Of a stretch of DNA of 64,000 nucleotides, positions 6,321 to 27,155 are shown one piece after another. The notes beneath the pieces were generated by a model. The model ran no database searches, was not told where the DNA came from, and saw nothing but the letters and a program-made list of their open reading frames with translations. A program made the position numbers and the translations under genes. Location of the stretch: contig JAFKLL010000013.1 of assembly GCA_017304845.1 (NCBI GenBank), positions 1 to 64,000 on the forward strand, given 5' to 3'. Origin of the DNA: Solirubrobacterales bacterium. Lineage in GTDB: Bacteria; Actinomycetota; Thermoleophilia; Solirubrobacterales; 70-9. How positions within the stretch are numbered: position 1 is the first letter of the stretch; every line of letters starts with the position of its first letter.

Positions 6321-7559
6321 GTGTCCAAGGAGTGGATTCGTTGGGGGAAGTTGACGTGGATGGTCGCGGCGATCGGTGCGATCGCCTGCTTTGCCGCGTC
6401 CCCGGCAGGGGCCAGCGACAAGGAAGCCTCGCGGCTCGCTGACGCCCAGTCACAACTCGCCGCGGCCGTGGCCAAGGCCGACGCGAGCCTCGCCGAGATC
6501 GATGGTCTCAAGGCTCGACTCAGGACGGCTCGCACCAAAGAGTCGATCACCCAGCGTGCCGTCGATGATTCCAAGGAATCTCTGAGAGAAGCCGCTTCCT
6601 CGGCACAACGCGAACGCGACGAGGCAGCGCAACGAATCGCGCAGGCCCGCCAGGACAGCGACCATGAACAGTCGTCGTGGAGGACCCGCCTCGCACTGGT
6701 CTCCGGGGCGCTCGGACTGCTCCTGATCCTGGCTCTGGCCTTTGCCTTCTGGCTTCCCTTGTTGGTCTCGCGGCCAGTGCTGATGCTGGTGCGCACCGAT
6801 CGCACCAAGGTTGCCTTTGCGATCGGTGGCAGCGCCTTGGCGGGCGTGGGGATTGGCGCCGTGATCGCCGGTGATTCCGGCACGTTCGGAATCGCGGGCG
6901 GCGGCGCCCTCGGTGGATTGTCGGTCGGCGCGGCGATCGCTCTCGCCGTAACCGTCTGGGACGCGCGTCGGTTGAGCACCGGGGACGGCACGATCGCCGG
7001 GCATCGGTCCCTGGGCGGCGCCACGCTTCGAGGGGCATCGGCAGCCGCGGCCGCCTTGGCGTTCGTCCTTCTGCTCGGCCTGGCTTCGGTCAGCTCCGAG
7101 CCGGAACCACCGTCGGTTCCCCCAGACACTCTCGCTCTGGCGAGGATGGGTTCGGTGGACGACTCACCAACCCCACGGATACGAGTGTTGAGCCGCGATC
7201 TGAACTCGAAGCAGGCCCGTCTCGACGTCGACGCGGACCGGCGGGAAGGCCTGGAAGAGCAACTCGCCGCAACGTTCCGACGCGTCTACGCCGCGAAGTC
7301 CCAGATTCGACTGGCCGAGCGCCAGACATCGAGATGGGAAGCCGCGCTGTTGAAGCCCGACCCTGCACCCGAACCCGAGTACGTCCCCTACGAGGAGACG
7401 CCGGCGCCGGCGAGCAGCGGCTGCGACCCGAACTATTCCGGCTGCGTGCCGCCCTACCCACCGGACGTGGATTGCGCCGATGTCGGTGGCAGCGTCAGCG
7501 TGCTCGGCGACGACCCACACGGACTTGACGCGGATGGAGACGGAATTGGCTGCGAGTAG
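6321..7559 (+). CDS. exported/membrane coiled-coil protein with C-terminal Excalibur domain
   Basis: The 412-aa product begins with a signal-like helix (WMVAAIGAIACFAASPAGA). Next come an alpha-helical coiled coil (about residues 34-120), three to four membrane segments (about 125-250), a second coiled coil (about 290-340) and a proline-rich linker. It ends in an Excalibur-type calcium-binding motif (DLDADGDGIGCE-like ending: GLDADGDGIGCE). Excalibur domains are extracytoplasmic and Ca-binding. Its function is unknown. It overlaps the next gene by 26 bp, so the two are a unit, and both look slightly less GC-rich than their neighbours. I chose the start from the leaderless -10. Confidence 0.6.
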   Translation: MSKEWIRWGKLTWMVAAIGAIACFAASPAGASDKEASRLADAQSQLAAAVAKADASLAEIDGLKARLRTARTKESITQRAVDDSKESLREAASSAQRERDEAAQRIAQARQDSDHEQSSWRTRLALVSGALGLLLILALAFAFWLPLLVSRPVLMLVRTDRTKVAFAIGGSALAGVGIGAVIAGDSGTFGIAGGGALGGLSVGAAIALAVTVWDARRLSTGDGTIAGHRSLGGATLRGASAAAAALAFVLLLGLASVSSEPEPPSVPPDTLALARMGSVDDSPTPRIRVLSRDLNSKQARLDVDADRREGLEEQLAATFRRVYAAKSQIRLAERQTSRWEAALLKPDPAPEPEYVPYEETPAPASSGCDPNYSGCVPPYPPDVDCADVGGSVSVLGDDPHGLDADGDGIGCE

Positions 7560-8598
7560 CGCTTTGCCACTGCCCCGTGTTCCTTGGGACAGCAAGGACT
7601 ACGGACTGATCCTGGAGTGGGAGGAACGTCTGCGGGAACTTCGGGACGCGCGGTTTGCCCCGGCCCGACGCAAGACGGCTCCGTCACCGGCTCCCGTGGA
7701 CGACAAGTCGATTCGCCGCGAGCTGTCTCAGACGATGGGCGTCGACCGCCTGACGGCCGAACTCGGCTCTTCCACCACACCTCCGGTTGCGCCGCCGACC
7801 GAGCCGATCGACCAGCTCGAGATCCTGACTCGCGCCAGAGCCGTCGCGGTCGCCTCGATATCGCGGTGGAACCCACTTGCGAGATGGAGGACGGAGGGCA
7901 ATGTGCTGACCGAGGCTGCGGCTTCGGTCGAGCTGGAGAAGGAGCGCCGCCTGGCCGAGCGTGATCGCGCCCAGGCCGACCTGGACGAGAAATGGGAACG
8001 GCTGAGAGAGCTGCTGGACGAGCTGGACACACGCACCATGGACGAGCTCGACGCGGAGCGGGAACGTCGCGCCAGGCAACAGGCGGAGGAGCAAGAGCGT
8101 CTCGATCTCGAGTGGGACGCTCTGCTCAACAACGAGGAGCGAGAAATTCGGGCCTGCCTCGCGACGACCGAACGAAGGGCCGCCGTCAACTTCGAGCTGC
8201 TCGCGGTCACGGGATCCACTGCCGTGACTCGAGTCTGGATGACCGAGCCCGACACGCTGATCCCGGAACGCCACACCGGCTCCACCCCCGGCGGACGTCC
8301 CAGCGTCAAGAAGAGGAACAAGACCGAGCGCAACGAGACCCACCTTGAGCTTCTCGCAGTCGCGACCGTCAACGTCGGCCGGCAGGTGCTCGCCTGCGCG
8401 CCGGGGATCCGATCGGTGATCGTCGTAACCGCCTCGATCGCCCGGCCCGCCGATTCATTGACCATGGCGAGGATCGCTCGAGACGAAGTCGAACCGACCG
8501 ATTTCTCATGCAACATCAAGGGCCGGACCAACGAAGTCCACCCGATCGACGATCCGTCCGTACTTGCTCGCTACCCCGAGCACCCGTTGCCGGACTGA
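7534..8598 (+). CDS. coiled-coil protein of unknown function, partner of Excalibur protein
   Basis: The 354-aa product starts at ATG 7534 inside the 3' end of the upstream gene. Residues about 110-205 form a long charged coiled coil (ASVELEKERRLAERDRAQADL and onwards, very Glu/Arg rich). The C-terminal 140 residues form an alpha/beta domain containing LLAVTGSTAVTRVWMTE and LACAPGIRSVIVVTASI. No signal peptide or membrane helix is visible, so it is probably cytoplasmic, facing the coiled-coil membrane partner. I do not recognise the family. The 3' end overlaps the convergent TMEM175 gene by 28 bp. Confidence 0.6.
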   Translation: METELAASSALPLPRVPWDSKDYGLILEWEERLRELRDARFAPARRKTAPSPAPVDDKSIRRELSQTMGVDRLTAELGSSTTPPVAPPTEPIDQLEILTRARAVAVASISRWNPLARWRTEGNVLTEAAASVELEKERRLAERDRAQADLDEKWERLRELLDELDTRTMDELDAERERRARQQAEEQERLDLEWDALLNNEEREIRACLATTERRAAVNFELLAVTGSTAVTRVWMTEPDTLIPERHTGSTPGGRPSVKKRNKTERNETHLELLAVATVNVGRQVLACAPGIRSVIVVTASIARPADSLTMARIARDEVEPTDFSCNIKGRTNEVHPIDDPSVLARYPEHPLPD

Positions 8599-9227
8599 AG
8601 AGTGGCCCTCCGCTGCCAGGGGTCCAGGTAGAGCAGCGGGAACCAGAGGAGCGGGGTCCAGCCGCCCAGGGCGAGGCCGAGCGGGGCGGTCAGGATGAAG
8701 ACCGCGGCGGTGTAGTTCGACGACTTGAGGGTGAGGCGGAGGTTCCACTCCCACTCGGGCTCGGCCAGTCCGTGCTTGAGGATCAGCCGGACCATCAGGG
8801 ACTGCGAGATCGCGACCAACGCGAGGTTGAGGATGTAGAAGGTGGCGGTCAGCGGCACGTCGCTTCCGTACTCGCCGATCAGCTGGCTCGAGAACGGCAG
8901 CAGCACGATCCAGGCCAGGTAGAAGAGGGTCAATCCCATCAGGCCCCGGTCGAACTCCCGCACCATCCGCATCAGGCGGTGGTGGCTGATCCAGTAGACG
9001 CCGATCACCGCGAAGCTGATCCCGAAGGCGAAGAGGTCCGGCAGCATGTCACCGAGCGCGTCGACGAAATCGCCGTTGCCGCGGAGCGGGTCCGGCACCT
9101 CGATCTGGAGCACCAGCAGCGTGATCGCGATCGCGAAGACCCCGTCGGTGAAGGCGAGGATCCGCGACAGGTCCGGGCCGCGCTCCAGCGGCGGGAGGCT
9201 CCGGCGATCGGGCTCCGGCACGCTCAC
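8571..9227 (-). CDS. TMEM175-family (DUF1211) potassium channel
   Basis: This 218-aa protein has six hydrophobic segments. The first helix is RILAFTDGVFAIAITLL, matching the TMEM175 pore-helix signature RxxxFSDGVFAIAITLL with Ser replaced by Thr. Bacterial members carry one such repeat and assemble as tetramers that conduct K+. The start GTG 9227 overlaps the TGA stop of the 903-aa secreted protein (GTGA), so it is translated by coupling with that gene. An upstream extension in the same frame is an antisense shadow and is not used. Confidence 0.85.
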   Translation of the reverse strand: MSVPEPDRRSLPPLERGPDLSRILAFTDGVFAIAITLLVLQIEVPDPLRGNGDFVDALGDMLPDLFAFGISFAVIGVYWISHHRLMRMVREFDRGLMGLTLFYLAWIVLLPFSSQLIGEYGSDVPLTATFYILNLALVAISQSLMVRLILKHGLAEPEWEWNLRLTLKSSNYTAAVFILTAPLGLALGGWTPLLWFPLLYLDPWQRRATLQSGNGCSG

Positions 9228-11935
9228 CCTGAGACCGGGTGGCGACGCACGATCGCCCTGCCGCCGTTCCGGTGCTGGAGCACCACCACCCGGGCTCCCT
9301 TCAGACGGCCCTGGGCCAGGAGACGACGTAGCTTCGGAGAGCGCGGGGTGAGTGCCACGAAACGGTAGGTGTCGGGAACCTGCTGGAAGCTCTTCTCGGC
9401 GATGGCCCGGCCCTTCAGCTTCAACAAGACCCTGGTCTGGCAGTGCCCGTTCACCGGGCAGACGACCCGGACGCGGACCTTGCCGCCGTTCCTGACCGCG
9501 GAGCCCGCGCTCTGACGCCCGGCCTGATGCAGGTCGAGAGCGTCCGGGGGCGAGAGACGGAACCTCCTGGTCCCGATCCGCCCGGCGATCCCGTCGGCGT
9601 TGAGCGCCTGCACGTTGGCGACCGCCCAGGTGCCACCGGGATAGGACGGGATCGTGATCTTGCGCCGCTTCGGGCCGACCAGGCGGCGGTAGGCGCCAAG
9701 CCTCTGGCCCTGCCTCAGGACCGCGATCTCCGCCACGTACCCCGTCGCGCCGGGAACCGCGCGCCAGGTCGCCGCGGCCGTGTAGCCGTTCCGCCAAGCG
9801 CGGACGATCCTGGGCGCGTTCAGCTTCGCGGGACGATTGACGGTGAAGCGGTCCTCGACCGTCGCCTCACGCGGGGTGCCGCCGTGGACGACGACCGCGC
9901 GGAGACGCCGCTTGCCGTAGTGATCGCCCTTGGTGACCCTGAACGTGTAGCGGCCCCGGGTCTTGTCGGTGACCAGGATCGGCTGTTCGTACCCTCCGGC
10001 CATCACCTCGGAGAAGGCGATCTTCGTGTGGGGGTTCCCCTTCGAGTCCCAGACCAGGGTCCGGGTCAGGCCCCGGCCGACGATGCGGGCCTGGACCTTC
10101 TCCGGAGGCAGCGCCTTGCCGGTCTTCACGCCCATGATCGGCGCCGAGCCCGCGTAGGGGGTGATCGTCCACTCGCCTCTTGCGAGGCCGCCGGCCGCCA
10201 CGTGGGTGACCGCGTTCCGGCGGTCGACCACGATCATGAACTTCTTGGTCCGCACCACGTCCTTGCCTCTCGGGACCTCGAAGCTGCGACCGTCGCTCGA
10301 AGTCAACCGGAAGCGCGGCGCGTCGCCATCGCCGCGGGCGCTCAGCACCACCTCGCGGGGGCCGGTCGTCAACCGGCGGGGCCGTTCGGACGAGACCGCC
10401 GCGACACCGCTCCGGGTCGCCGCCGGGTACTTCTCCCGGTAGTTGTCGAGGCCGCAGCTGACACCGAACGTCTTGACCTCCTTCGCCCCGTACTCGTAGA
10501 CGGCGCCGCCGTCGAACCAGGTCACCTTCCAGCAGGCCCCGGCCGCGCGGTTGTTGATCAGGATCCGGCCATCGAAGATGTCGAGCCCGATCAGCCGCAC
10601 CTTGCCGCGGCCCTCGAACTGGAACTTCTGCTTGGCGACCCAGCCGTCGACCTTGGTGCCGATGTAGAAGGGGTCGTCGGGATTGTTCGAGTAGCTGGGG
10701 AATCCGATCCCGAGGTTGAACCCGAACTCGACGCCGCTGGCGGTGCGGATCTTCAGGTAGACGCTGCCGGCCGGGAGCCGGAAGACCTTGAGGCCGCCGT
10801 CGAAGAAGAAGTAGAAGTCGTTCTTCTCTTTGCCGATCTTCAGGGAGGAGTTGACCTCCAGCGGCACCAGCTTGCCCCAGGGCGAGGGCACCTTGGGACC
10901 GAACTCGGCGGTGGCCGCCGCGTTGAGGTTGAGCAGCAGCTGATCGTCGACCTTCTTGAACCCGAAGCCGCCACTGAGCGCGCTGATCGTGCCCGCCGGT
11001 GGCGCGCCGATCGGGATCTCCAGCCCCGAGGCGCCGACGCTGGCCTTGGTCAGCACCGCGTCCTGGACCTCGAACTCGAAGCTGATGCCCCGGTCACCCA
11101 TGAACGGAAGGCTGAAGCCGGCGCCACCGCCCAGGGTCTTCTCCTCGGCCGAGTACTTGGCCTCGAGGTTGTGGATCGTGATCAGCTTGATCCCGTCGAT
11201 CTCCTCCAGCTTCAATTCGAAGCCGTCAACATGGGAGCCCTCCCCGACCGCGGTCGGGACGTTGACGGTCACCGACTGCGGCTTGCCCTTCAGCGTCATC
11301 CAGCCGGCCAGGCGCAGGCTGAGATCCATCGAACCCTTGCCGCCCTCGAGCAGGCGGATCGGGGTCTCGATGTCGGGGATCGGCGAGAAGCCGGCCAGGG
11401 CCTTGACCCAGGTGGCGTTGGAGAAGAAGCGGAGATCCTCGAGGGTCATCGACCCGAACTTCGGCGCGGTGAAGTTCAGCTTGAACGGCTCACCGACCTT
11501 GGACGGTTCGGAGGTGAGCTCCTTCGGGCCGATCACGGCGAGCTGGATCGGCAGGATCTCGCCCGACTGCCCCTCGTAGCGGATCGAGGAGTCTTTGGTG
11601 TTGATCGTGATCCAGCCCTGTTTCCTGGCGTCGCCCTCGGGCTTGCGCCCGTCGACCAGGAAGCCGTTCATGTCGACCGCCTGGATCAGCTTGTCGCCGG
11701 TTCCGTAGTACGGCTGACGGTCCGGGTTGGCCGTGTAGACCTTGCCGCCGTCGATCGTGTCGACCTCGAAGCAGCCGAGCATCTGGACGATCCCGACCGT
11801 GACCTTCTCGGCCGTCTTGTTGCCGGGGCCCGCGCACTTCGGGGCGGTCTCCTCGCCGGCCGCGGACCCGGCCATCGCCACCATTCCCATGAGCGCCGCT
11901 CCCAGCGCGGCCAACATCAGGATCTTCTGCTTCAT
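9224..11935 (-). CDS. large secreted beta-rich protein, unknown function
   Basis: This 903-aa protein starts at ATG 11935, with a GGAGA about 10 nt upstream. It has a signal peptide (ILMLAALGAALMGMVAMAGSAAG). The middle (residues 60-530) is beta-rich and Gly/Phe-alternating. The C-terminus (550-903) has several Ig/FN3-like stretches and ends in the basic tail style seen in other secreted proteins here. A CPVNGHCQTRV block near residue 840 resembles the Cys-containing terminal domain of the Vgb-like protein at 61 kb. It is divergent from the two-component regulator at 12042 and coupled downstream to a K+ channel gene. No enzymatic motif is recognised. Confidence 0.75.
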   Translation of the reverse strand: MKQKILMLAALGAALMGMVAMAGSAAGEETAPKCAGPGNKTAEKVTVGIVQMLGCFEVDTIDGGKVYTANPDRQPYYGTGDKLIQAVDMNGFLVDGRKPEGDARKQGWITINTKDSSIRYEGQSGEILPIQLAVIGPKELTSEPSKVGEPFKLNFTAPKFGSMTLEDLRFFSNATWVKALAGFSPIPDIETPIRLLEGGKGSMDLSLRLAGWMTLKGKPQSVTVNVPTAVGEGSHVDGFELKLEEIDGIKLITIHNLEAKYSAEEKTLGGGAGFSLPFMGDRGISFEFEVQDAVLTKASVGASGLEIPIGAPPAGTISALSGGFGFKKVDDQLLLNLNAAATAEFGPKVPSPWGKLVPLEVNSSLKIGKEKNDFYFFFDGGLKVFRLPAGSVYLKIRTASGVEFGFNLGIGFPSYSNNPDDPFYIGTKVDGWVAKQKFQFEGRGKVRLIGLDIFDGRILINNRAAGACWKVTWFDGGAVYEYGAKEVKTFGVSCGLDNYREKYPAATRSGVAAVSSERPRRLTTGPREVVLSARGDGDAPRFRLTSSDGRSFEVPRGKDVVRTKKFMIVVDRRNAVTHVAAGGLARGEWTITPYAGSAPIMGVKTGKALPPEKVQARIVGRGLTRTLVWDSKGNPHTKIAFSEVMAGGYEQPILVTDKTRGRYTFRVTKGDHYGKRRLRAVVVHGGTPREATVEDRFTVNRPAKLNAPRIVRAWRNGYTAAATWRAVPGATGYVAEIAVLRQGQRLGAYRRLVGPKRRKITIPSYPGGTWAVANVQALNADGIAGRIGTRRFRLSPPDALDLHQAGRQSAGSAVRNGGKVRVRVVCPVNGHCQTRVLLKLKGRAIAEKSFQQVPDTYRFVALTPRSPKLRRLLAQGRLKGARVVVLQHRNGGRAIVRRHPVSG

Positions 11936-11985
11936 CTGCTGCTCGTCTCCATTCTCGACACGGACTCCCGCGCGCATCGTTCCAG

Positions 11986-12002
11986 GGCGGTGTTTCACCG
12001 CC
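11986..12002. promoter_or_regulatory. inverted repeat in divergent promoter region
   Basis: GGCGGTGTTTCACCGCC is a perfect 7-bp inverted repeat with a 3-nt centre. It lies midway between the divergent starts of the 903-aa secreted protein (11935) and the response regulator (12042). It could be an operator for the adjacent regulator or a small hairpin in the 5' leader. Confidence 0.35.
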
Positions 12003-12041
12003 GTTACAGCCTGGAGGGCCGGATTGATGGAGGATGCAGCG

Positions 12042-12695
12042 ATGCGGATCCTTGTCATCGAGGACGAAGAGCCGATGCTCAGGAACCTGGAACGGGGCCT
12101 CTCACGGGCCGGCTTCAGGGTCGATTCGGCGACCGACGGGCAGACCGGCCTGGACAAGGCTTCGATGACCGCCTACGACGTGATCGTGCTCGACCGGGAC
12201 CTGCCTCGCGTCCACGGCGACGAGGTCTGCCGACGGCTCAACCTGGCCGGCAACGAGGCCCGGGTGATCATGCTGACCGCGGCCGCCTCCCTGGACGACC
12301 TGACCGAGGGTCTCAACCTCGGCGCCGACGACTACCTGACCAAGCCGTTCCGGTTTCCCGAGCTGACCGCCCGGATCAACGCGCTCGCCCGCCGGAGCGG
12401 GCGGCCCTCCCCGGTCGTCTTCGAGCGGGACGGCCTGACCCTGGACCCGTCCCGTGGCCTCGCCGCCCGCGACGGCGAGGATCTCGACCTCACGCACCGG
12501 GAGATCATGGTGCTCGAGGTGCTGCTCCGAGCCGAGGGCGGGGTCGTCTCCGCCGATCGCCTGCTCGAAGAGGTCTGGGGGCAGGACGCGGACCCGTTCG
12601 GCTCCTCGGTCCGGGTCACGATGTCGCGCCTCAGGCGCCGGCTCGGCGATCCCCCGATCATCGAGACCGTGGTCGGGCGCGGGTACCGGATTTGA
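12042..12695 (+). CDS. OmpR/PhoB-family response regulator
   Basis: The 217-aa product has a receiver domain (residues 1-115) with the acidic pocket IEDEE, phosphoacceptor D51 in VLDRDLP, the switch Thr in MLTA and Lys in YLTKPF. A winged-helix DNA-binding domain follows (about 130-215), with LTHREIMVLEVLL and the terminal VVGRGYRI. It acts as a phosphorylation-controlled transcription factor. I chose the start ATG 12042 because GGAGG sits 8 nt upstream; an in-frame ATG at 12027 would give five extra residues. It overlaps its cognate kinase by TTGA. Confidence 0.93.
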   Translation: MRILVIEDEEPMLRNLERGLSRAGFRVDSATDGQTGLDKASMTAYDVIVLDRDLPRVHGDEVCRRLNLAGNEARVIMLTAAASLDDLTEGLNLGADDYLTKPFRFPELTARINALARRSGRPSPVVFERDGLTLDPSRGLAARDGEDLDLTHREIMVLEVLLRAEGGVVSADRLLEEVWGQDADPFGSSVRVTMSRLRRRLGDPPIIETVVGRGYRI

Positions 12696-13837
12696 GGCGC
12701 AGACCGACGATCCGGCTGCGGGTGGCGCTTTCCTGCGCGGCCCTGGTGACGGTCACCGGCGCCCTGGTCCTGATCGGGATGCTCTACCTGACCCAGCGCA
12801 CGATCGACAAGAACTCGCCGCAGGTCACCTTCAACACCAAGTCCGACAGCCCGGCGGTGCTGCGCTCCCAGACCTTCGCGCTCTCGGTCCAGAACCAGCA
12901 GCTGGTCCACGACACGGTCTCCGAGGTGCGGACGATCGGCCTGATCGGGCTGGCCCTCCTCGCGGTCGGCTCGCTGGGCGCCGGCTGGTTCCTGGCCGGG
13001 CGGATGCTGCGTCCCGCGACCAGCCTTGCCGCGGCGGTGGAGGAGATCTCGGCGATGAACCTGGATCAGAGGCTGGGCCACGTGGGTCCCGACGACGAGC
13101 TCAAGTCGATCTCGGATGCTTTCGACCGGATGCTCGAACGCCTCGACCAGGCATTCGACCGGCAGCGTCGCTTCGTCGCCGACGCCTCGCATGAGATGCG
13201 AACCCCGTTCGCGACGATGCGGACCCAGATCGACGTGGCCCTCGACGATCCCGACCTGACCGACGAGGAGCTCCGGCGGACCATGGCCGAGATCGGCGAG
13301 GTGGTCGACCGGGGCGGCGAGCTGGTCGACGCGATGCTCGCCCTATCCCGGGCCGAGGTAGTGGCCGGCCGGCGCCGCGTCGACCTGGCCGAGGCGACCG
13401 CCGAGGTGGTCACCGCCACGCCCGGCACCGCGGGCCTGGACCTGCGGATCGATCTGAGCGAGACCGAGGTGGAGGCCGATCCCGTCCTGCTCGATCGGCT
13501 GGTCGCCAACCTGATCCGCAACGCCGTCGCCTACAACCGGCCGGGCGGCCTCCTCGAAGTCGAGGTCGGGCCGGCCGACGACCAGGCATTCCTGGTCGTG
13601 AGGAACGACGGGCCGATGCTCTCCGACCGGGACGTGCCGATGCTGTTCTCCCGTTTCCACCGGCAGGACCCGACGGCTTCGGAGCGAGGGTTCGGTCTCG
13701 GGCTCTCGGTGGTCGAGGCGATCGCCCGGGCCCACGAGGGATCGGTCGCCGCGACCGCCCGCCCGGAAGGCGGCCTCGAGGTCCGGTTCGAGATGGCCCG
13801 TGCCCCTCAGGGCGAGCCGCAGGGACCGATGCCGTAG
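12692..13837 (+). CDS. sensor histidine kinase
   Basis: This 381-aa kinase starts with TTG 12692, overlapping the regulator's TGA. Its layout is TM1 (VALSCAALVTVTGALVLIGML), a short periplasmic loop of about 55 residues, TM2 (LIGLALLAVGSLGAGWFLAG), HAMP (MLRPATSLAAAVEEIS), HisKA with the phospho-His in DASHEMRTPF, and HATPase with N-box LVANLIRNAVAYN and G-box GFGLGLSVVEA. The periplasmic domain is too small for a large ligand, so it may sense a membrane or small-molecule cue. Its partner is the regulator at 12042. The end overlaps the convergent lipoprotein gene by 31 bp. Confidence 0.93.
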   Translation: MRRRPTIRLRVALSCAALVTVTGALVLIGMLYLTQRTIDKNSPQVTFNTKSDSPAVLRSQTFALSVQNQQLVHDTVSEVRTIGLIGLALLAVGSLGAGWFLAGRMLRPATSLAAAVEEISAMNLDQRLGHVGPDDELKSISDAFDRMLERLDQAFDRQRRFVADASHEMRTPFATMRTQIDVALDDPDLTDEELRRTMAEIGEVVDRGGELVDAMLALSRAEVVAGRRRVDLAEATAEVVTATPGTAGLDLRIDLSETEVEADPVLLDRLVANLIRNAVAYNRPGGLLEVEVGPADDQAFLVVRNDGPMLSDRDVPMLFSRFHRQDPTASERGFGLGLSVVEAIARAHEGSVAATARPEGGLEVRFEMARAPQGEPQGPMP

Positions 13838-14253
13838 TCGGTGAGGCGCCGGGTGACCGCCTCGAAGGGGCCCTGGCTGGCAAGCCCGGGATCCGCCTCG
13901 ACCCGGTCGGTCGCCCGCTCGAGGCCCTTCAGCATGGACTCGATCTCCCGCCGATCCCCGGGAGGCCATTCGAGAGCTCGGAGATCCCGGACCTGCTGTC
14001 GGAGGTTCGGCACCCAAACCTCGTGCGTGTAGCGGATGCCCTCCTCGTCGCTCGGCTGCTCGTCGGGACCGAACGCGTCGACCACGCCCTGCCTGAGCAC
14101 CTCGTTGGCGCGGTTGCAGATCTCGTTCGCCCGCTCCACGAACTCGGCCTTGGTCGTCACCTCCGGGTCCGGGTCGGATCCACATCCGGCGATGCCGAGG
14201 AGCATCAGCGCGGCCCCGGCCAGGCATCCCGAGATGAGGGCGATACGTCTCAT
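13807..14253 (-). CDS. small lipoprotein, unknown function
   Basis: The 148-aa product has a lipoprotein signal: basic MRR, the hydrophobic stretch GCLAGAALMLLG and the lipobox IAGC (Cys about residue 24). The mature part is helical (FVERANEICNRANEVLRQGV, VRDLRALEWPPGDRREIESMLKGLERA) and contains paired Cys. Its pattern, with NEIC near the start and a GPCG ending, recurs in actinobacterial lipoproteins of unknown role. It follows the P-type ATPase by 8 bp on the same strand and is probably co-transcribed. Confidence 0.75.
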   Translation of the reverse strand: MRRIALISGCLAGAALMLLGIAGCGSDPDPEVTTKAEFVERANEICNRANEVLRQGVVDAFGPDEQPSDEEGIRYTHEVWVPNLRQQVRDLRALEWPPGDRREIESMLKGLERATDRVEADPGLASQGPFEAVTRRLTDYGIGPCGSP

Positions 14254-14261
14254 GCGATCTC

Positions 14262-16652
14262 TCAGCGGGACCCGCGTGGCCGGCCCTGGCCGATGAACCG
14301 CAGGGCCACCGCCATCAGAGCGAGGCCCAGGACCGAGCCCGCGGCCCAGGCGAGGAGCATCTTGCCGGTGAACCGTTCGAGGGCGAAGAAGTCGCGGATC
14401 GGCGGGATGAGGATCGACAGGACGAACCCGGCCGCCATCAGGGCGCAGAGGCCGGCGACCAGGAGGCGACGCCGGCCCGGTTCGTCCTCGAGGACCATGA
14501 CGATCGCGAGCCCGGCGGTGACGACGGTCGCGGCGGTGATGGTGCGGGAGTCCGCCAGGGGCACGTCCAGGGCGTGGCGGCTGAGCAGCCAGGAGACCGT
14601 GATCCCGATCCCGGTCGCGATGCCGACCGGGATCGAGAAACGGGCGATCGCCTTGAGGAAGCCGTCCGGCCGCCACGGGCCGCTGCTCGGGGCGAGCGCC
14701 AGGAAGAAGGCGGGGATGCCGATCGTGAGCGACGAGGTCAGGGTGAACTGGCGGGGCAGCAGCGGGAAGATCCCGGTCGGGATCGCCACCACCATCAGCA
14801 GGAAGGCGGTAAAGATCGCCTTCGAGACGAAGAGGCGGGCGACCCGCTGGATGTTGCGCAGGATCTGGCGACCCTCGTGGACCATGCCCGGCACCTGGCC
14901 GAAGCTGCCGTCGACCAGCACCAGGTCCGCGACCGAGCGGGCCATCTGGGTTCCGTTCCCCTGGGCGATCGCGAGGCGGGATTTCTTCAGGGCCGGCACG
15001 TCGTTCACCCCGTCGCCGATCATGCCGACGTACTGGCCGGACTCGGCCAGCACCCGCACGACCCGTTCCTTGCCTTCCGGCGAGATGCGGCCGATCGCGG
15101 GCGAGTCGTGGATCGCGGCGAGCAGTTCCTCGTCGGTCTCCGGCAGTTCCTCGCCGTTCAGGGCGGGGCCGGTGGTGCCACGGGCGATGCCGGTGTCGCG
15201 GGCGATCGCGCCGACCGTGGCGGGCGCGTCGCCGGAGAGGATCTTGAGGGCGACCTCCTCACGGCGGAAGAAGTCGACGGTCTCGCCGGTGTTCGGCCTC
15301 AGATTCTCGGCCAGCACGATCAGGCCGAGCGGCTCGAGGCCGGCGGGGAGCACCGGATCGTCGTCGGCATCCGGCAGCGCCCCGGGGAGCGAGGCGATCG
15401 CGAGCACGCGTCGGCCCTGGGAAGCCTCGGTCGTCGCCCGTTCCTGCAGGGCCGGGTCCGCGCCGCCGGCGAGCAGGGCCTCCGGCGCGCCGAGGGCGAA
15501 ACGGTCGCCCCCGATCTCCAGGGCGCCCCAGCGCCGACGGGAGGAGAACGGGACCTGGGCGGAGGGCGTCTCGGCGGTGGCCTGGCCGAGACCGGCGGCA
15601 TGGATCGCTTCCAGGGTGCCGTTGCGGGATGGCATCGAGGCCGCGTACCGACCGAAGCGATCGGCCAGTTCGTCCTCGTCGACCCCGTCGGTCGGGATCA
15701 GCTCGACCACCCGGAGGGCCGCCTCGGTGAGGGTCCCGGTCTTGTCGGTGCAGAGGATGCTGACCGAGGCCAGCGACTCGATCGCGTTGAGCTGCTGGGC
15801 GAGAATCCCGCGCCGCGCCATCTTCGCGGCGGAGACCGCCGCGGTCAGCGAGACCAGCAGGATCAGACCCTCGGGAACGATGTTGACCACCGCCGCGGTC
15901 ATCGTCTCGACCGCCTCGGCCTGGGTCACTTCGCGGACCCCGAGGGAGATGCCGAGACCGACCGCCAGCGGCACCATCACCGCGACGAGGATGATCAGCA
16001 GCCGGTCCATCGCCTTCTCCAACGGGGAGCGTGGGTGGCGGAAGGCCCGCGCGGTCTCGGCCAGCTTCGCCGCGCGGCAGTCCGGGCCGACCGCGGTCGC
16101 GACGATCCGGGCCTCTCCCTCGACCACGAAAGAGCCCGACCAGACCTCGCCCTCCGCCTCGCGGCGGACGGGCTCGGATTCCCCGGTCAGGTTCGCCTCG
16201 TCGAGTTGGAGGCCGTCGGCCGAGTGGACCACGCCGTCGGCGATCACCTGATCTCCTGGGCCGACCAGGACCAGGTCACCGACCACCACGTCCTCGACCG
16301 GCACCTCGATCCGCCGACCGTCCCGCATCACCTCGGCCTTGATCGCGATCAGCGCCGCGAGCCGGTCGAGGGCGAGCTTGGCCCTGACCTCCTGGCCGAT
16401 CCCGATCGTCGCGTTGGCGACCAGGATTCCCATGAAGAGCGCGTCCTTGGGGTCGCCGAAGAAGATCGTGAGCAGACCGAAGGCGAGCAGGATCGCGTTG
16501 AAGACCGTGAAGATGTTCGCGAACGCGATCGAGCGGAAGGACCGACTGGTCTCCGGCTTCGGCAGCGGCCCGCGTTCCTCGAGGCGGCGGGCCGCCTCAG
16601 CCGAGGTCAGTCCCTCTTCGGCGGTGTCGATCAGCGTTGGGGAGGCGGTCAC
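14262..16652 (-). CDS. P-type cation-transporting ATPase (CtpE-like)
   Basis: This 796-aa ATPase has the actuator motif TGES (156-159), the phosphorylation motif DKTGTLT with D303, and the hinge GDGVNDVPALKKS. The TM4 motif is VPEGL (about residues 259-263) rather than CPC, so it is not a heavy-metal P1B pump. Length and TM4 sequence match mycobacterial CtpE, a Ca-linked transporter, as I recall. No N-terminal metal-binding domain is present. It probably moves a divalent cation across the cytoplasmic membrane at the cost of ATP. It is followed by a small lipoprotein gene. Confidence 0.88.
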   Translation of the reverse strand: MTASPTLIDTAEEGLTSAEAARRLEERGPLPKPETSRSFRSIAFANIFTVFNAILLAFGLLTIFFGDPKDALFMGILVANATIGIGQEVRAKLALDRLAALIAIKAEVMRDGRRIEVPVEDVVVGDLVLVGPGDQVIADGVVHSADGLQLDEANLTGESEPVRREAEGEVWSGSFVVEGEARIVATAVGPDCRAAKLAETARAFRHPRSPLEKAMDRLLIILVAVMVPLAVGLGISLGVREVTQAEAVETMTAAVVNIVPEGLILLVSLTAAVSAAKMARRGILAQQLNAIESLASVSILCTDKTGTLTEAALRVVELIPTDGVDEDELADRFGRYAASMPSRNGTLEAIHAAGLGQATAETPSAQVPFSSRRRWGALEIGGDRFALGAPEALLAGGADPALQERATTEASQGRRVLAIASLPGALPDADDDPVLPAGLEPLGLIVLAENLRPNTGETVDFFRREEVALKILSGDAPATVGAIARDTGIARGTTGPALNGEELPETDEELLAAIHDSPAIGRISPEGKERVVRVLAESGQYVGMIGDGVNDVPALKKSRLAIAQGNGTQMARSVADLVLVDGSFGQVPGMVHEGRQILRNIQRVARLFVSKAIFTAFLLMVVAIPTGIFPLLPRQFTLTSSLTIGIPAFFLALAPSSGPWRPDGFLKAIARFSIPVGIATGIGITVSWLLSRHALDVPLADSRTITAATVVTAGLAIVMVLEDEPGRRRLLVAGLCALMAAGFVLSILIPPIRDFFALERFTGKMLLAWAAGSVLGLALMAVALRFIGQGRPRGSR

Positions 16653-22483: not shown

Positions 22484-22705
22484 ATGCGAAAGGGATGGCG
22501 GGAGATGGTGGGTGGAGCCGGATGCAGGTCGGCGGTGCGGCTCGTCCTCGTCGGGGTAGTCGCTCTTGTCTGTGCCGCGTCTCCATCCGTGGCCGCCGAC
22601 GCTGATACAACCGGCAAACGGGAGGGATATCAGTCGGACGTGGTCTGGACGACGGCCAGCACGGTCTCGGCAACTTCTTCTCGTGACATGGCCGCGGTGA
22701 CCTGA
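22484..22705 (+). pseudogene. exported-protein 5' fragment truncated at island edge
   Basis: From ATG 22484 the frame encodes a good signal peptide: a basic start, the hydrophobic core AVRLVLVGVVALVCAAS and AxA at PSVAADA. About 10 mature residues follow before it runs into sequence antisense to the deoxynucleoside kinase gene (from about 22630). The first about 145 bp have the GC-rich style of the host chromosome; the rest does not. I read this as the 5' stump of a secreted-protein gene cut by insertion or replacement at the left edge of the island. It could instead be a fortuitous short ORF. Confidence 0.45.
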
Positions 22706-23205
22706 ATTCGCTCGACGCGTCGACCTAACTCGCCTTCTCGCCGTTTGTAAGCCTCGCCGAGCCGAGAAAGATATTCCGGCTGGATGTCCCGCTCGAATGA
22801 GCGACCACGGTGCGCGATGCGCTCCATGACGAGTTCGAGATCGGGGTCTAGGTAGATCGCCAGGTCGGGAATCGGAAGCGACCCCGAGGTTCGTTGGTAC
22901 ACCGTCGAGAAAATCTCGTGGTCATTACCTCTGAGATTGAGATCGGCGAAAACGAGGTCCTTAACTGGCGAATAGTCCAACACGGTGGCATCGTTCGGAG
23001 AGAGATCTCGATACTGGTGGTAGTGCAGCAGCAGGAAGCAAAGCTCGGTCTCGAAGGTGTAGCGAGGAATGTCTCGATAAAATGCTTCTAGGAACGGGTG
23101 CTCACTTGAGCGCTCGTGCCAATATTCCAGATCGGGCTGCTCGCCAAGTAGGCGCGCCGTGGTGCTCTTGCCGGAGCCAGGCAGGCCTTCGAGCGAGATA
23201 ATCAA
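22630..23205 (-). CDS. deoxynucleoside kinase (dNK/dGK-dAK family)
   Basis: This 191-aa protein has the P-loop GLPGSGKST (about residues 7-15). The family blocks EHPFLEAFYRDIPRYTFETEL, FLLLHYHQYRD, the DYSPVKD substrate/ERS-type motif and the LID region RGRSFERDIQPEYL follow. It should phosphorylate a deoxynucleoside with ATP, giving a deoxynucleoside monophosphate. It is the last gene of the island operon; its ATG overlaps the stop of the DUF7002 gene (ATGA). In this context it may make or salvage the nucleotide handled by the PurA-like enzyme two genes upstream. Family assignment is firm; exact nucleoside unknown. Confidence 0.85.
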   Translation of the reverse strand: MIISLEGLPGSGKSTTARLLGEQPDLEYWHERSSEHPFLEAFYRDIPRYTFETELCFLLLHYHQYRDLSPNDATVLDYSPVKDLVFADLNLRGNDHEIFSTVYQRTSGSLPIPDLAIYLDPDLELVMERIAHRGRSFERDIQPEYLSRLGEAYKRREGELGRRVERIQVTAAMSREEVAETVLAVVQTTSD

Positions 23206-23870
23206 GACTCACGCTTCCAAAGCAGCTTCGATTTGACCCCGACCTGACGACGTTCTACTCGGTTCGCGACATCTCGGATATCCAGGACCCCATGGTCGAC
23301 GGCGAGTTCAACGATCGCGTTGGCCTTGCCGCGCGCTTTCTTGCGCTCTTCGAAGGCGTACTCGGAGATCGGCAAGAACGTTTCTGAGCCACGAGCCGGG
23401 GGCTTGTACATCGTCGCACCCGAGTTAATTGGTGAGAGCGTAACCGCATCCGCGTGACGATCAAGTAGTCGTTCGGTGTCGATCACGAAGACATCATGCG
23501 GGAGGTCCCTGTACGCGCGCGCGCCAAGCAACGTTTCGAGGTGTTCTTCCGTGAGCCAGAAAAAGACTCTGGAGTTGAGTACCTCAAGCCACTGCGTGAA
23601 GGTCATGTCCGTCAAGCAGTCGGTTAGACGCTTCTCGCTGAGTGGAATCTGGTCGCGAACGACCGCTTCTCCATACCTCTTGTGCTTCAGCCGAACCGAG
23701 GCGGGCCTTCGCTGCTGCAGGATCTCCGATCGCTGCGGTTCTTGAACCTCGAAGAGATCAAGAAGAGCACTGGTGCTGAGCAGACCGTGCTCAGAGATGC
23801 TATTCCACGAACCGGCTTCCGCCATATGGAAGAGCTGAGGATAGGTATCAATGATGGTTCGTATTTCCAT
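23202..23870 (-). CDS. DUF7002-like protein, possible ADP-ribosyltransferase
   Basis: The 222-aa product begins TYPQLFHMAEAGSWNSISEHG and continues LLSTSALLDLFEV. It has further conserved-looking blocks: RRPASVRLKHKRYGEAVVRDQ, RVFFWLTEEHLETLL, LSPINSGATMY and FLPISEYAFEER. I recall this as the DUF7002 pattern. The opening (His, then a Ser-rich turn and GLLS) is reminiscent of the NAD-binding start of DarT/RES-type ADP-ribosyltransferases. The toxin reading is inference, encouraged by the macro-domain protein in the same operon. It starts 4 bp after the stop of the PurA-like fusion gene and overlaps the kinase gene, so it is translated within a coupled operon. Confidence 0.65.
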   Translation of the reverse strand: MEIRTIIDTYPQLFHMAEAGSWNSISEHGLLSTSALLDLFEVQEPQRSEILQQRRPASVRLKHKRYGEAVVRDQIPLSEKRLTDCLTDMTFTQWLEVLNSRVFFWLTEEHLETLLGARAYRDLPHDVFVIDTERLLDRHADAVTLSPINSGATMYKPPARGSETFLPISEYAFEERKKARGKANAIVELAVDHGVLDIRDVANRVERRQVGVKSKLLWKRES

Positions 23871-23874
23871 GTAG

Positions 23875-25485
23875 TCACCAGGCGCGTCGGTCGATCACGC
23901 TACGCACGTGAAATCGAGTTGAAATGAGGGAGACAGGGGCACACGCGACACGCTCGATCTCCTCAATGAAGCGGATAGTGTCCGGCTGAAGTTGATCAAA
24001 ACGCCGCGCTTCGCGATTCTTGATGTTCAGGTAGTCAACAAACGTCAAAGCGATGTCGGTCGCTCCGTTGAGTTGTGCGGCACGATGGAGCAGCTCCCAA
24101 TCAAATTCGCCGACCCGGCGCTGCTTATTCGAAACAGACCCCTTCTCGGTACTTCGCAGCTCACGGACAGGGATCTTCGAGCGTCGAGCAATCTCGGCCC
24201 ATGAGGTGGTCTGCCCCATTGGACCTGAAGTCTTACCCCTGGTACCAGGACTTTGGACACGAATCGGATACGTCCGGCACACCATGATCGTTCTCCGCAC
24301 TCGGGTCGGCGCGATGCCCATCTCAGCCAGACACCCCGACACGGTGGTGTCACGCGATGTCACGTGTGGGTAGTAGCCGTGGAACAGACTCAGAGCGGTT
24401 CCTTGGGTGCCCTCAAGCAGAATCCGATCGCCTCGGGCGTACGCAGCGAACAATGAGTCGCGTGTCGGGGCAATAAATGGCTTTAGTTCGGGAACGTCAG
24501 CCGCCAGTCGAACGCCGCCCGTTCGACCGACTATTCGTCGTGCTGTCGCGGCGCCGACCCCTTGTCCCGTAGATCCTATTTCCTTCACAAGCGCGACTTC
24601 GGACTTTTTATCGACCTTGTCGATGATCATCGCCTGGGGGTCGATTCGGAGACGATCAAATTCGAGTTGACACTTCGCTATTTCGTCGAAGAGGACATCC
24701 GTGTTGAGGACGGCACCAGGACCGATGAGGATTGGCACTTCGCTTGTCATGGTGGCTGAAGGCAAGAGCCGATGGGTGAAGGGTCCGTCATCAAGCGGAA
24801 CCTTGTGGCCGGCGTTTGGACCTCCCACGCGGCAAAGCATGTCGTACTCTGATCCAATAGCGAACGCAATGTTGCCTTTGCCCTCGCTGCCGTACTGCCC
24901 GCCAATGATCACATCGACGAGAGCGCCTGGATCGCGCGCGCTGAGTCCGAGGTAGGCCGCGGCACGGACTTCGACATCGCGCTTTGTGCTCAGTGCCGTG
25001 TCGATGACGACATCTGCATCTTGCGCGAGCGACGGCACCTGTCGCTCAGTCTTGTTCTTCAACAACTTCGTGTAGCTAGATGTCTCGGCAAATCCAGACT
25101 TATGCCGGCGGCGGTATCGCCGTTCGAGTTCGGGTCGAGGCGCGTCCAGGTGAACGTGGACGACCTGACGAGGCAATCCCGCCCGAAGCGCCTGGATCTG
25201 TTCCGCGATCCGAACGGCATCGACTAGAACAATCGCATCTGAGTCGAGCCTGTTGATCTGTGGGACGAGATCGTCCGCGATCCACGAGCCCTTGGTTGCT
25301 CGATCGAGCTGCTCTCCAAATCGTTGCATCGCAGTACGCTCGGAAGCAATTTTTCCCTTCGCGCGGGACTTGAGCAGCAGCCTCGTTCGGTAATGGATTG
25401 CTCCGTAGTCATCTACGAGGCGCCTGGCAAGTGTCGTCTTGCCGGCCGATACTGGCCCTGAAAGCACGACGACGACCCTGGCCAC
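23875..25485 (-). CDS. P-loop nucleotide kinase fused to adenylosuccinate-synthetase-like (PurA/PurZ) domain
   Basis: The product is 536 aa from GTG 25485, placed 2 bp after the upstream stop. Residues 1-185 are an adenylate-kinase-like P-loop domain (LSGPVSAGKTT at 8-18, VDAVRIAEQ, then Arg-rich RRYRRRHKS lid). Residues 188-536 are PurA-like: GGQYGSEGKGN (199-205 where PurA has GDEGKGK), GGPNAGHK with H227, IGSTGQGVG, LEGTQGTALSLFHG and CAPVSLIST. The catalytic Asp of PurA is Ser (S200), as I recall for the aminoadenine enzyme PurZ. The aspartate-binding TTGRRRR loop is replaced by SVSNKQRR. It is thus a divergent paralogue, not housekeeping PurA. It likely ligates Asp or another amino group donor to a purine (deoxy)nucleotide; the substrate is unproven. 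Confidence 0.8.
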   Translation of the reverse strand: MARVVVVLSGPVSAGKTTLARRLVDDYGAIHYRTRLLLKSRAKGKIASERTAMQRFGEQLDRATKGSWIADDLVPQINRLDSDAIVLVDAVRIAEQIQALRAGLPRQVVHVHLDAPRPELERRYRRRHKSGFAETSSYTKLLKNKTERQVPSLAQDADVVIDTALSTKRDVEVRAAAYLGLSARDPGALVDVIIGGQYGSEGKGNIAFAIGSEYDMLCRVGGPNAGHKVPLDDGPFTHRLLPSATMTSEVPILIGPGAVLNTDVLFDEIAKCQLEFDRLRIDPQAMIIDKVDKKSEVALVKEIGSTGQGVGAATARRIVGRTGGVRLAADVPELKPFIAPTRDSLFAAYARGDRILLEGTQGTALSLFHGYYPHVTSRDTTVSGCLAEMGIAPTRVRRTIMVCRTYPIRVQSPGTRGKTSGPMGQTTSWAEIARRSKIPVRELRSTEKGSVSNKQRRVGEFDWELLHRAAQLNGATDIALTFVDYLNIKNREARRFDQLQPDTIRFIEEIERVACAPVSLISTRFHVRSVIDRRAW

Positions 25486-25487
25486 GA

Positions 25488-26870
25488 TCAGATCCCGAGC
25501 CCTAACTGCGTTAGCTCGGCGTCGGGCTCGTCGATGGCCTCTCGAGGCGGGACGTACACCGTGACCCGGATACCTTCTCGCGTCATCGTCTGCTCGACGA
25601 GTTCGCGGACCATCGACCATCGTCCACCAGCCTGCCCTGCCCCAATGCGCGGCATGTGGACGGTGGCACCTTGGTCACGCGCGAACGCCGCGACCTGGGT
25701 GAGGGCTTGTCGGACAGCTTCGTATCGAATGCGCGGTCGCTTCGACGGACCGTACCCGCGCTGGCCGACGATCGTTGCGACCCACATGCGATCGGCAACC
25801 TCGCCGACGTACGCGGCACCGAGCTCAAGTCGCGTAGGGTCTGCCAGAACCCAATCGCGAAAGTCATCCTGCGCCGCCGGGAAACGCGAGCGGAGTGACG
25901 CGGCAAAGCCTCTGCCCCAGTTTGGAGTCTTGTCGTTGACCAAATGAACGAGAACTCGAGGCGGAGCTCCGCTTGGCTTGAGAGCGTCCCCGTGGAGCAC
26001 GTCAACCTCGTTCGTAGCCGCAGCCCTCACACCATGAGGGGAGATCAAACCGAGCACTCGGGGAAAGCGATGGCCCGGAAACGCCGGCGCACCGACGGCC
26101 TGGACGCGCATCGGTCCCAGTCGTTCAGCCCAAATCTCTTCCCTCTTGGCCGTGAAACCGATGGCCGTACATTCCGCAAGCACCGTCTTTTCGGGAAGCA
26201 AACGACCACCGGGCAGCTGGGGATCCCACGCTTTGGTGCGTGCCGTGTAGTCGATCCGAAAGGGCGATGTCGCAGTCGTTGGGTTTGTGCGTGAGGCGGC
26301 AAACATCGCCAAAGGGCGGTTGGTCAACTTCACAGCCCGGCGAAGCAGAGCCTCGGTGGACACCCCATAGGTCCTGCGAAGCTCCATGAGACGTTCGATC
26401 TTGAGAGGCCCCTTACGCAGCTCGGATAGTGCATCCGTCGGCATGATGAGTTCGGCTGCCGCCACATTGCAGAGCAACTCAAGCTGCCACGCATCAGGCG
26501 GTCCAGCCGCCGGGTTAGCCCGGTATCGGGCAGCTGCAGCCACATCCGGAAACAGTGTGTGAGCAATTTCGTGCGCCAACGAGAACCTCAAACGCGGAGC
26601 GGGACGCGTAGGGTTGTACTCGATCCGAACTCCACCATCGCCCGCTGGAACAACACGAGCGTCGGCCAGTTCTTGGTGGGCCTCGACCGGTATCCCCTGG
26701 ATGCGCGCGAGCTCGAAGGGGTCGAACGGCGGCCCGTGCCAACCCTGTTCGATTGCATGCATAACGAGGCGCTGCGCGGCGTCCTCGACGGCCGCAATTG
26801 GGTCGCGATCCTCGGCGAATGCAAGGACCGACTCGTTGGTCCAGTAGCGAGACACCCGGCGACCATACAC
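25488..26870 (-). CDS. ImmA/IrrE metallopeptidase fused to macro domain
   Basis: This is the first gene of the island operon and encodes 460 aa. Residues about 20-200 are a COG2856 ImmA/IrrE peptidase with zinc motif HEIAH (H100, E101, H104) and the downstream ELLCNVAAAELIMP helix. Residues about 286-440 are a macro domain (VDVLHGDALKP, VLVHLVNDKTPNWGRGFAASL, MPRIGAGQAGGRW) closest to the TARG1/ALC1-like type. The Asp used for catalysis by TARG1 (GLD motif) seems to be Ala here, so it may bind rather than cleave ADP-ribose. IrrE peptidases usually cut a repressor. The start is GTG 26870 or GTG 26855; an in-frame TAG upstream excludes more. Confidence 0.85.
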   Translation of the reverse strand: MYGRRVSRYWTNESVLAFAEDRDPIAAVEDAAQRLVMHAIEQGWHGPPFDPFELARIQGIPVEAHQELADARVVPAGDGGVRIEYNPTRPAPRLRFSLAHEIAHTLFPDVAAAARYRANPAAGPPDAWQLELLCNVAAAELIMPTDALSELRKGPLKIERLMELRRTYGVSTEALLRRAVKLTNRPLAMFAASRTNPTTATSPFRIDYTARTKAWDPQLPGGRLLPEKTVLAECTAIGFTAKREEIWAERLGPMRVQAVGAPAFPGHRFPRVLGLISPHGVRAAATNEVDVLHGDALKPSGAPPRVLVHLVNDKTPNWGRGFAASLRSRFPAAQDDFRDWVLADPTRLELGAAYVGEVADRMWVATIVGQRGYGPSKRPRIRYEAVRQALTQVAAFARDQGATVHMPRIGAGQAGGRWSMVRELVEQTMTREGIRVTVYVPPREAIDEPDAELTQLGLGI

Positions 26871-26918
26871 ATCGAGCCGGTCTGAACCTTGACGTGATAA
26901 CTATTGCGAACAACCTCC

Positions 26919-26990
26919 TTACGGCGGTTTCTCGATGACTGGTTCGCGAGCTTGAGCGACGGGGATGGAACCTACGACCGCCTGGACCAT
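26919..26990 (-). other. possible 23-codon leader ORF before island operon
   Basis: ATG 26990 opens a short frame ending at TAA 26921-26919. The stop overlaps a strong Shine-Dalgarno AAGGAGG (26920-26914) that has no properly placed ATG/GTG for the peptidase gene. A TTG at 26913 in another frame follows. It may be a translated leader controlling the operon, or chance. Confidence 0.25.
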
Positions 26991-27081
26991 AAAAAAGGTG
27001 TTGCCTAACGGCTTGCCTGGGGAAGCCAGGAATACCGTAACTTTGGTATCCCCTCTCACAGCTACCAAGCCAAAGGAAGAG

Positions 27082-27155
<74 letters not shown>

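Follow-up and report, generated by a model that had tools for sequence, protein, structure and literature searches.

A PurZ-like domain fused to a kinase in a mobile, probable defence cassette with a predicted ADP-ribosyltransferase

What would a nucleotide-making enzyme with serine in place of its catalytic aspartate be doing in a bacterium, fused to a kinase and surrounded by genes of ADP-ribose chemistry? The question is raised by a 536-residue protein encoded in a stretch of 64,000 nucleotides from a Solirubrobacterales bacterium (contig JAFKLL010000013.1, positions 1 to 64,000), referred to here as the window. The C-terminal part of this protein belongs to the fold family of adenylosuccinate synthetase (PurA) and, as set out below, is well supported by sequence comparison as PurZ-like and not PurA. 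We consider it probable that the fusion gene belongs to a mobile cassette of three genes, in which it makes the nucleotide, and that this cassette is of an anti-phage or toxin–antitoxin-like kind resembling DarTG. The fusion and its domains are located as follows.

23875–25485, minus strand: kinase–PurZ-like fusion, 536 residues, GTG start at 25485
24931–25485, minus strand: N-terminal domain (residues 1–185) of nucleoside monophosphate (NMP) kinase fold with intact P-loop, from AlphaFold, Protein Data Bank (PDB) matches and conservation
23878–24918, minus strand: PurZ-like domain (residues 190–536), the codon of S200 at 24886–24888

The open reading frame is a genuine gene, since other genomes contain 79 loci homologous to it, most of them alignable across residues 1–536. 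Residues 1–~175 match P-loop kinases in Pfam, and the fused kinase with its P-loop that the first-pass annotation had read from the letters is thus present and intact. The modelled N-terminal domain is most naturally read as an NMP kinase, since the AlphaFold model is good (predicted local distance difference test, pLDDT, 93.4) and matches the adenylate-kinase-related structure 3lw7 and UMP/CMP kinase in the PDB; S9, G10, G15, K16, R50, D61, D89, R92 and Q96 are invariant in this half. Residues 190–534 match Pfam Adenylsucc_synt (E value 1e-51), with Pyrococcus-type PurA and three phage PurZ structures among their solved relatives. The fusion falls below the cut-off of every NCBIfam model that it matches, scoring 279 with archaeal short PurA (cut-off 368) and 188.7 bits with PurZ (NF038379, cut-off 300).

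PurZ and PurZ0 are the phage succino-2-aminodeoxyadenylate synthetases (S-2L, PDB 7odx; phiVC8, 6fko; Archimedes, 7vf6). An alignment of the fusion with phage PurZ/PurZ0, archaeal PurA and housekeeping PurA confirms the GSEGKGN motif noticed at the outset: the aligned housekeeping and archaeal PurAs have Asp where S200 stands, whereas ~99% of 90 homologues of the fusion and all ten phage sequences examined have Ser. The histidine of NAGH (H227) is retained, as claimed, and the GST motif is shared. The fusion also has the RxxPIRV segment of PurZ, which in PurA reads KAxxTRV. The view that the Asp-binding TTGRRRR loop had been replaced was overstated, because GSVSNKQRR is the PurZ form (VxxKxRR-type) of the TTGRxRR of PurA and is not foreign; relatives of the fusion have GTVSGKxRR, and the counterpart in phage VP2 is TTVTKKIRR. 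For the pocket residues that PMC8342488 describes in S-2L PurZ, the motifs give counterparts at G199, S200, N224, A225, T306, Q361 and V410.

A phylogeny, which the first-pass annotation had proposed, was computed with IQ-TREE and groups the fusion with PurZ/PurZ0 and not with ordinary Asp-bearing PurA. Fusions, PurZ and PurZ0 form a Ser-bearing clade (support 100/99), with the Asp-bearing archaeal and housekeeping PurAs outside. Within it, a single clade (100/97 or better) holds the cellular and phage fusions, apart from L212, a divergent phage fusion. The trees do not resolve the branching order inside the Ser-bearing clade, and sampling at the root is thin, as archaeal short PurA searches around genomes G400 and G396 gave just one more clear case, L135. 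In published comparisons all phage PurZ have Ser, and four archaeal sequences have Ser or Gly (PMC12884076). The serine, the RxxPIRV segment, the clade and the neighbours of the phage relatives described below bear out the suggestion that Asp-to-Ser marks a PurZ-type domain. The fusion differs from phage PurZ in its kinase, its bacterial and archaeal hosts and its place in an operon with an ADP-ribosyltransferase (ART) gene.

The match to the PurA Pfam family, together with an Asp-keeping PurA-like gene in a rhizobial deazapurine-type cluster, would suit an ordinary PurA paralogue or a part of a nucleoside-antibiotic pathway. We regard this as most improbable: the Asp is lost, the domain lies in the PurZ-like clade and its neighbours are ART, macrodomain and defence genes. 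A separate full-length PurA is present in 14 of the 14 other host genomes checked; none was found in the window's own metagenome-assembled genome (75% complete), and 18 of 20 relatives have one. Ordinary PurA was rejected on the serine, the tree placement and this separate host enzyme.

The rhizobial cluster (L011, R. leguminosarum pCC283b_4, 7363–15711) comprises folE, a PurA-like gene with the motif GDEAKGK, purB, queE, IMP dehydrogenase, queC and a 6-CTP synthase-like gene, and resembles a 7-deazapurine nucleoside cluster. Elsewhere, L014 and L015 contain PurA-like genes of the Ser type that are not fused. These occur with HD/ThiF or deoxynucleoside kinase (dNK) genes and adjoin the gene of a dCTP-deaminase-like protein whose C terminus has a hydrophobic, probably membrane, segment, a second cellular Ser-PurA module.

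In the window, the fusion gene is one of four closely packed minus-strand genes, running from peptidase–macrodomain through fusion and DUF7002 to dNK, within an island of low guanine-plus-cytosine (GC) content.

25488–26870, minus strand: ImmA/IrrE (M78) metallopeptidase–macrodomain fusion, 460 residues, from domain matches and conservation of HExxH and Gln370
25545–26009, minus strand: macrodomain of this protein (residues 288–442), SCO6735/ALC1-like hydrolase class
23202–23870, minus strand: DUF7002 protein, predicted ART, 222 residues, from PF22531 (E value 5e-70), structure model and conservation
22630–23205, minus strand: dNK (PF01712), 191 residues, accessory and rare in relatives
27081–27155, minus strand: tRNA-Arg (acg) beside the island, a likely hot spot for insertion
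22500–27000, no strand: low-GC island, 55–65% GC against 63–74% in the flanks

Gaps of 2 bp and 4 bp separate the fusion gene from the peptidase–macrodomain and DUF7002 genes, respectively, and the DUF7002 and dNK genes have 4 bp in common at the DUF7002 stop. The domain fusion, the P-loop and the operon go far beyond what chance would give. GC content is lowest at 22.5–25.5 kb. The island adjoins the tRNA-Arg gene, of which a search with a 14-bp exact seed found no att repeat.

A scan of GTDB genomes found 79 loci with full-length fusions (74 bacterial and 5 archaeal), and rhizobial and Methylobacterium plasmids carry such fusions too. Across 87 loci spanning about 15 phyla, Archaea included, DUF7002 lies within 3.5 kb of the fusion in 84, usually just downstream, and is its immediate same-strand neighbour in 80; the peptidase–macrodomain gene is near the fusion in 62. 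Because these two proteins are the constant partners, the setting appears, from gene order, to be a mobile defence or toxin–antitoxin-like cassette and not a Z-genome pathway (Z denoting 2-aminoadenine). The cassette is found on plasmids, on prophage-like or mobile-element contigs (L152, L154 and L156) and in defence islands. Its parts, operon and mobility, like the PurZ kinship, are reasonably established from sequence. In one archaeal locus (L055, 6001–11375) two nearby fusion genes lie on opposite strands, one with DUF7002 and the other with the peptidase–macrodomain gene.

The other genes vary. MazG-like genes occur in 14 of the 87 loci, HD deoxynucleoside monophosphate phosphatases in 10, PurB-like lyases in 5 and dNK in 3; dNK was rejected as a core partner on this count. 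The first-pass annotation had taken both the fused kinase and dNK as suppliers or traps of the nucleotide, of which the part concerning the fused kinase stands, its domain being intact and able in principle to phosphorylate the product. Variants without the macrodomain protein often have a MazG-like pyrophosphohydrolase in actinomycetes and, in alphaproteobacteria, an HD phosphatase with a ~455-residue protein. MazG, PurB-like lyase, peptidase–macrodomain, fusion and DUF7002 genes are contiguous in L029 and L030, and L040 has the same set minus the macrodomain gene; on paper these sets would convert dGTP to dGMP, dSMP, dZMP and dZDP, the PurB and MazG assignments being superfamily matches and not substrate-specific models. 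Deoxypurine nucleotide chemistry would suit all four kinds of accessory gene (MazG, lyase, HD and dNK). The recurrence of salvage partners (dNK, MazG and HD phosphatase) would also suit a PurZ-like enzyme and kinase that repair or salvage nucleotides damaged by the ART or by phage; we consider this very unlikely, as a PurZ-type active site builds an unusual nucleotide and does not restore a normal one.

Two proteins without a Pfam match recur around the cassette: the ~455-residue protein (L005, 10336–11832), with homologues in 10 alphaproteobacterial loci near the cassette and the HD phosphatase, and a 243-residue protein, also without a PHROG match (L034, 8317–9045), which lies downstream in loci of Chloroflexota and Archaea as well as in L015.

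Phage contigs of the fusion clade have a different neighbourhood. Five of them (L151, L153, L155, L157 and L158) have no DUF7002 gene beside the fusion. A family-A DNA polymerase gene (DNA_pol_A) lies upstream of the fusion in L153 and L155 and elsewhere on the contig in L158; next to the fusion are a deoxyribosyltransferase–MazG protein in L151 and a deoxyribosyltransferase-like gene in L157. Partners of the polymerase and deoxyribosyltransferase kind are employed by phage Z clusters (PMC12884076). In the tree these five contigs are interspersed with the cellular fusions, which argues for one enzyme type in both settings. L155 (3795–12078) encodes a family-A polymerase, a VWA protein, kinase–PurZ and a deoxynucleotide monophosphate kinase, and is a candidate Z-genome phage.

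DUF7002 is predicted from its modelled fold to be an ART. The model (pLDDT 97.4, from a 41-sequence alignment) has DarT1 as its best PDB match in Foldseek (8baq; E value 2.3e-4, prob 1.0), followed by other ART-fold proteins (A chains of the cholera and pertussis family) and tRNA 2'-phosphotransferase. When PDB sequences were searched by profile, the single match was again DarT1 and was weak (E value 0.08); a BFVD search gave nothing at E ≤ 0.001, and no PADLOC or NCBIfam model of the DarT sequence family matched. All 86 sequences compared share H15, R55, R72, D73, Y120 and E188, the last of which would, in the model, open a late strand, the place where ARTs hold their catalytic glutamate. DarT1 itself requires E152, R52 and D54 (PMC11543638). 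In four actinomycete genomes (L231–L234) a standalone DUF7002 gene lies beside or near dnaE, the gene for DNA polymerase III alpha, in loci without the fusion.

The third cassette protein combines an N-terminal half matching IrrE and CapP, in which HExxH is intact (H100, E101 and H104, conserved in nearly all sequences having those positions), with a C-terminal half matching the macrodomain SCO6735 over its whole length (5e3b, E value 4.6e-28) and, more weakly and by profile, TARG1-type and DarG-type domains. SCO6735 takes thymidine-linked ADP-ribose off DNA in a Gln85-dependent manner and also inhibits DarT (PMC9411070). Its Gln85 aligns, through a GQxG stretch, with Gln370 here, a residue found in 62 of 63 sequences, with a gap in the remaining one. 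Unlike SCO6735, the macrodomain here shares its chain with an ImmA/IrrE peptidase, and its gene is linked to that of an ART.

A DarT-like predicted ART fold and a macrodomain of the DNA–ADP-ribose hydrolase type in one operon recall DarTG, and this eraser is present in the window operon as in most other loci. The cassette differs from DarTG in that DUF7002 lies outside the DarT sequence family, the macrodomain is of the SCO6735/ALC1 type with Gln and is fused to an ImmA peptidase, and the PurZ–kinase gene sits between the ART and macrodomain genes. These similarities would also suit a scheme in which the cassette puts 2-aminoadenine into phage DNA, the ART modifies its 2-amino group and the macrodomain cleans host DNA: the nearest solved ART, DarT1, acts on guanine bases (PMC11543638), and SCO6735 removes DNA-linked ADP-ribose. 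As no Z-specific polymerase is seen in the cassettes and the SCO6735 substrate is linked to thymidine, we consider this scheme quite unlikely.

For the cassette as a whole we infer a substrate, a product, a coupling of PurZ–kinase to the ART and protection against phages, along the following lines. The PurZ-like domain would join aspartate to (d)GMP, giving succino-2-aminoadenylate, from which PurB of the host or cassette would produce the 2-aminoadenine nucleotide; the fused kinase would phosphorylate this nucleotide, or a precursor, to the diphosphate. DUF7002, with its predicted fold and invariant H, R and E residues, may place its mark on nucleic acid or on a nucleotide, the macrodomain half may remove this mark, and the ImmA half, by analogy with CapP and IrrE, may regulate or sense. 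The odd nucleotide could be an alarm signal that triggers the ART, in the manner of dITP in Kongming, or it could become the ART target once incorporated in replicating DNA. We favour this signal-or-target model because expression of the S-2L Z-cluster (datZ–mazZ–purZ) is toxic to E. coli, whose DNA Z enters (PMC8342488), and because Kongming uses a base-modified deoxynucleotide, dITP, as an immune signal (PMC12948488, PMC12774641). Kongming resembles the cassette in a kinase-assisted, base-modified deoxynucleotide in a defence context, with signalling here hypothesized, and differs in its deaminase in place of PurZ and its SIR2 effector in place of an ART; Pfam, NCBIfam and PADLOC 2023 named no Kongming components among the operon proteins. 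Immunity in which a cellular PurZ–kinase makes a 2-aminoadenine deoxynucleotide that serves an ART effector as a signal or as a tag on DNA is a tentative proposal, to which we give somewhat less than an even chance.

The toxicity of the S-2L set, and the variants without a macrodomain protein, could also be taken to mean that the cassette has two loosely tied functions, with PurZ–kinase making dZTP-like antimetabolites that poison replication and the ART and macrodomain acting as a separate addiction module. Across about 15 phyla, however, the ART and PurZ–kinase genes are neighbours in 80 of the 87 loci even though the rest of the gene set varies. This favours a functional tie, and we consider the loose arrangement unlikely.

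Several observations weigh against a DarTG-like defence cassette. The macrodomain protein is absent from 25 of the 87 loci and hence is not obligatory, and the match of DUF7002 to DarT1 is remote (template modelling score 0.47–0.50, identity 13%). Since several actinomycete genomes have a standalone DUF7002 gene beside dnaE, members of this family need not act in defence in every case. As for the phages, the contigs that carry the fusion are predicted ones from IMG/VR and are candidates for Z-DNA. In favour of defence, the operon flanks in 14 hosts match 99 PADLOC families (including Type I restriction–modification, PifA and PDC-S19) and the flanks of housekeeping purA in those genomes match 2, counted per model at E ≤ 1e-15, yet these counts are dominated by redundant Type I restriction–modification models and a few proteins carry most of them. 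A defence role for the cassette remains likely.

We found no PADLOC model that describes the cassette, nor a paper that does. In open-licence papers, preprints excluded, we found DUF7002 in none, although an unseen description is possible, nothing that joins adenylosuccinate synthetase with anti-phage activity, and nothing relevant on macrodomain, ART and adenylosuccinate together. As a defence system, probably against phages, the cassette appears not to have been described before.

PurZ-type enzymes in the literature found come from phages and a few archaeal sequences. If our reading is correct, a widespread cellular PurZ tied to an ART and an eraser of the DNA–ADP-ribose hydrolase type would link the fields of Z-DNA and DNA ADP-ribosylation, a further candidate base-modified nucleotide would join dITP in immune signalling, and DUF7002 would gain a suggested function. 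It would also bear on the direction in which Z chemistry was transferred, from cells to phages or from phages to cells.
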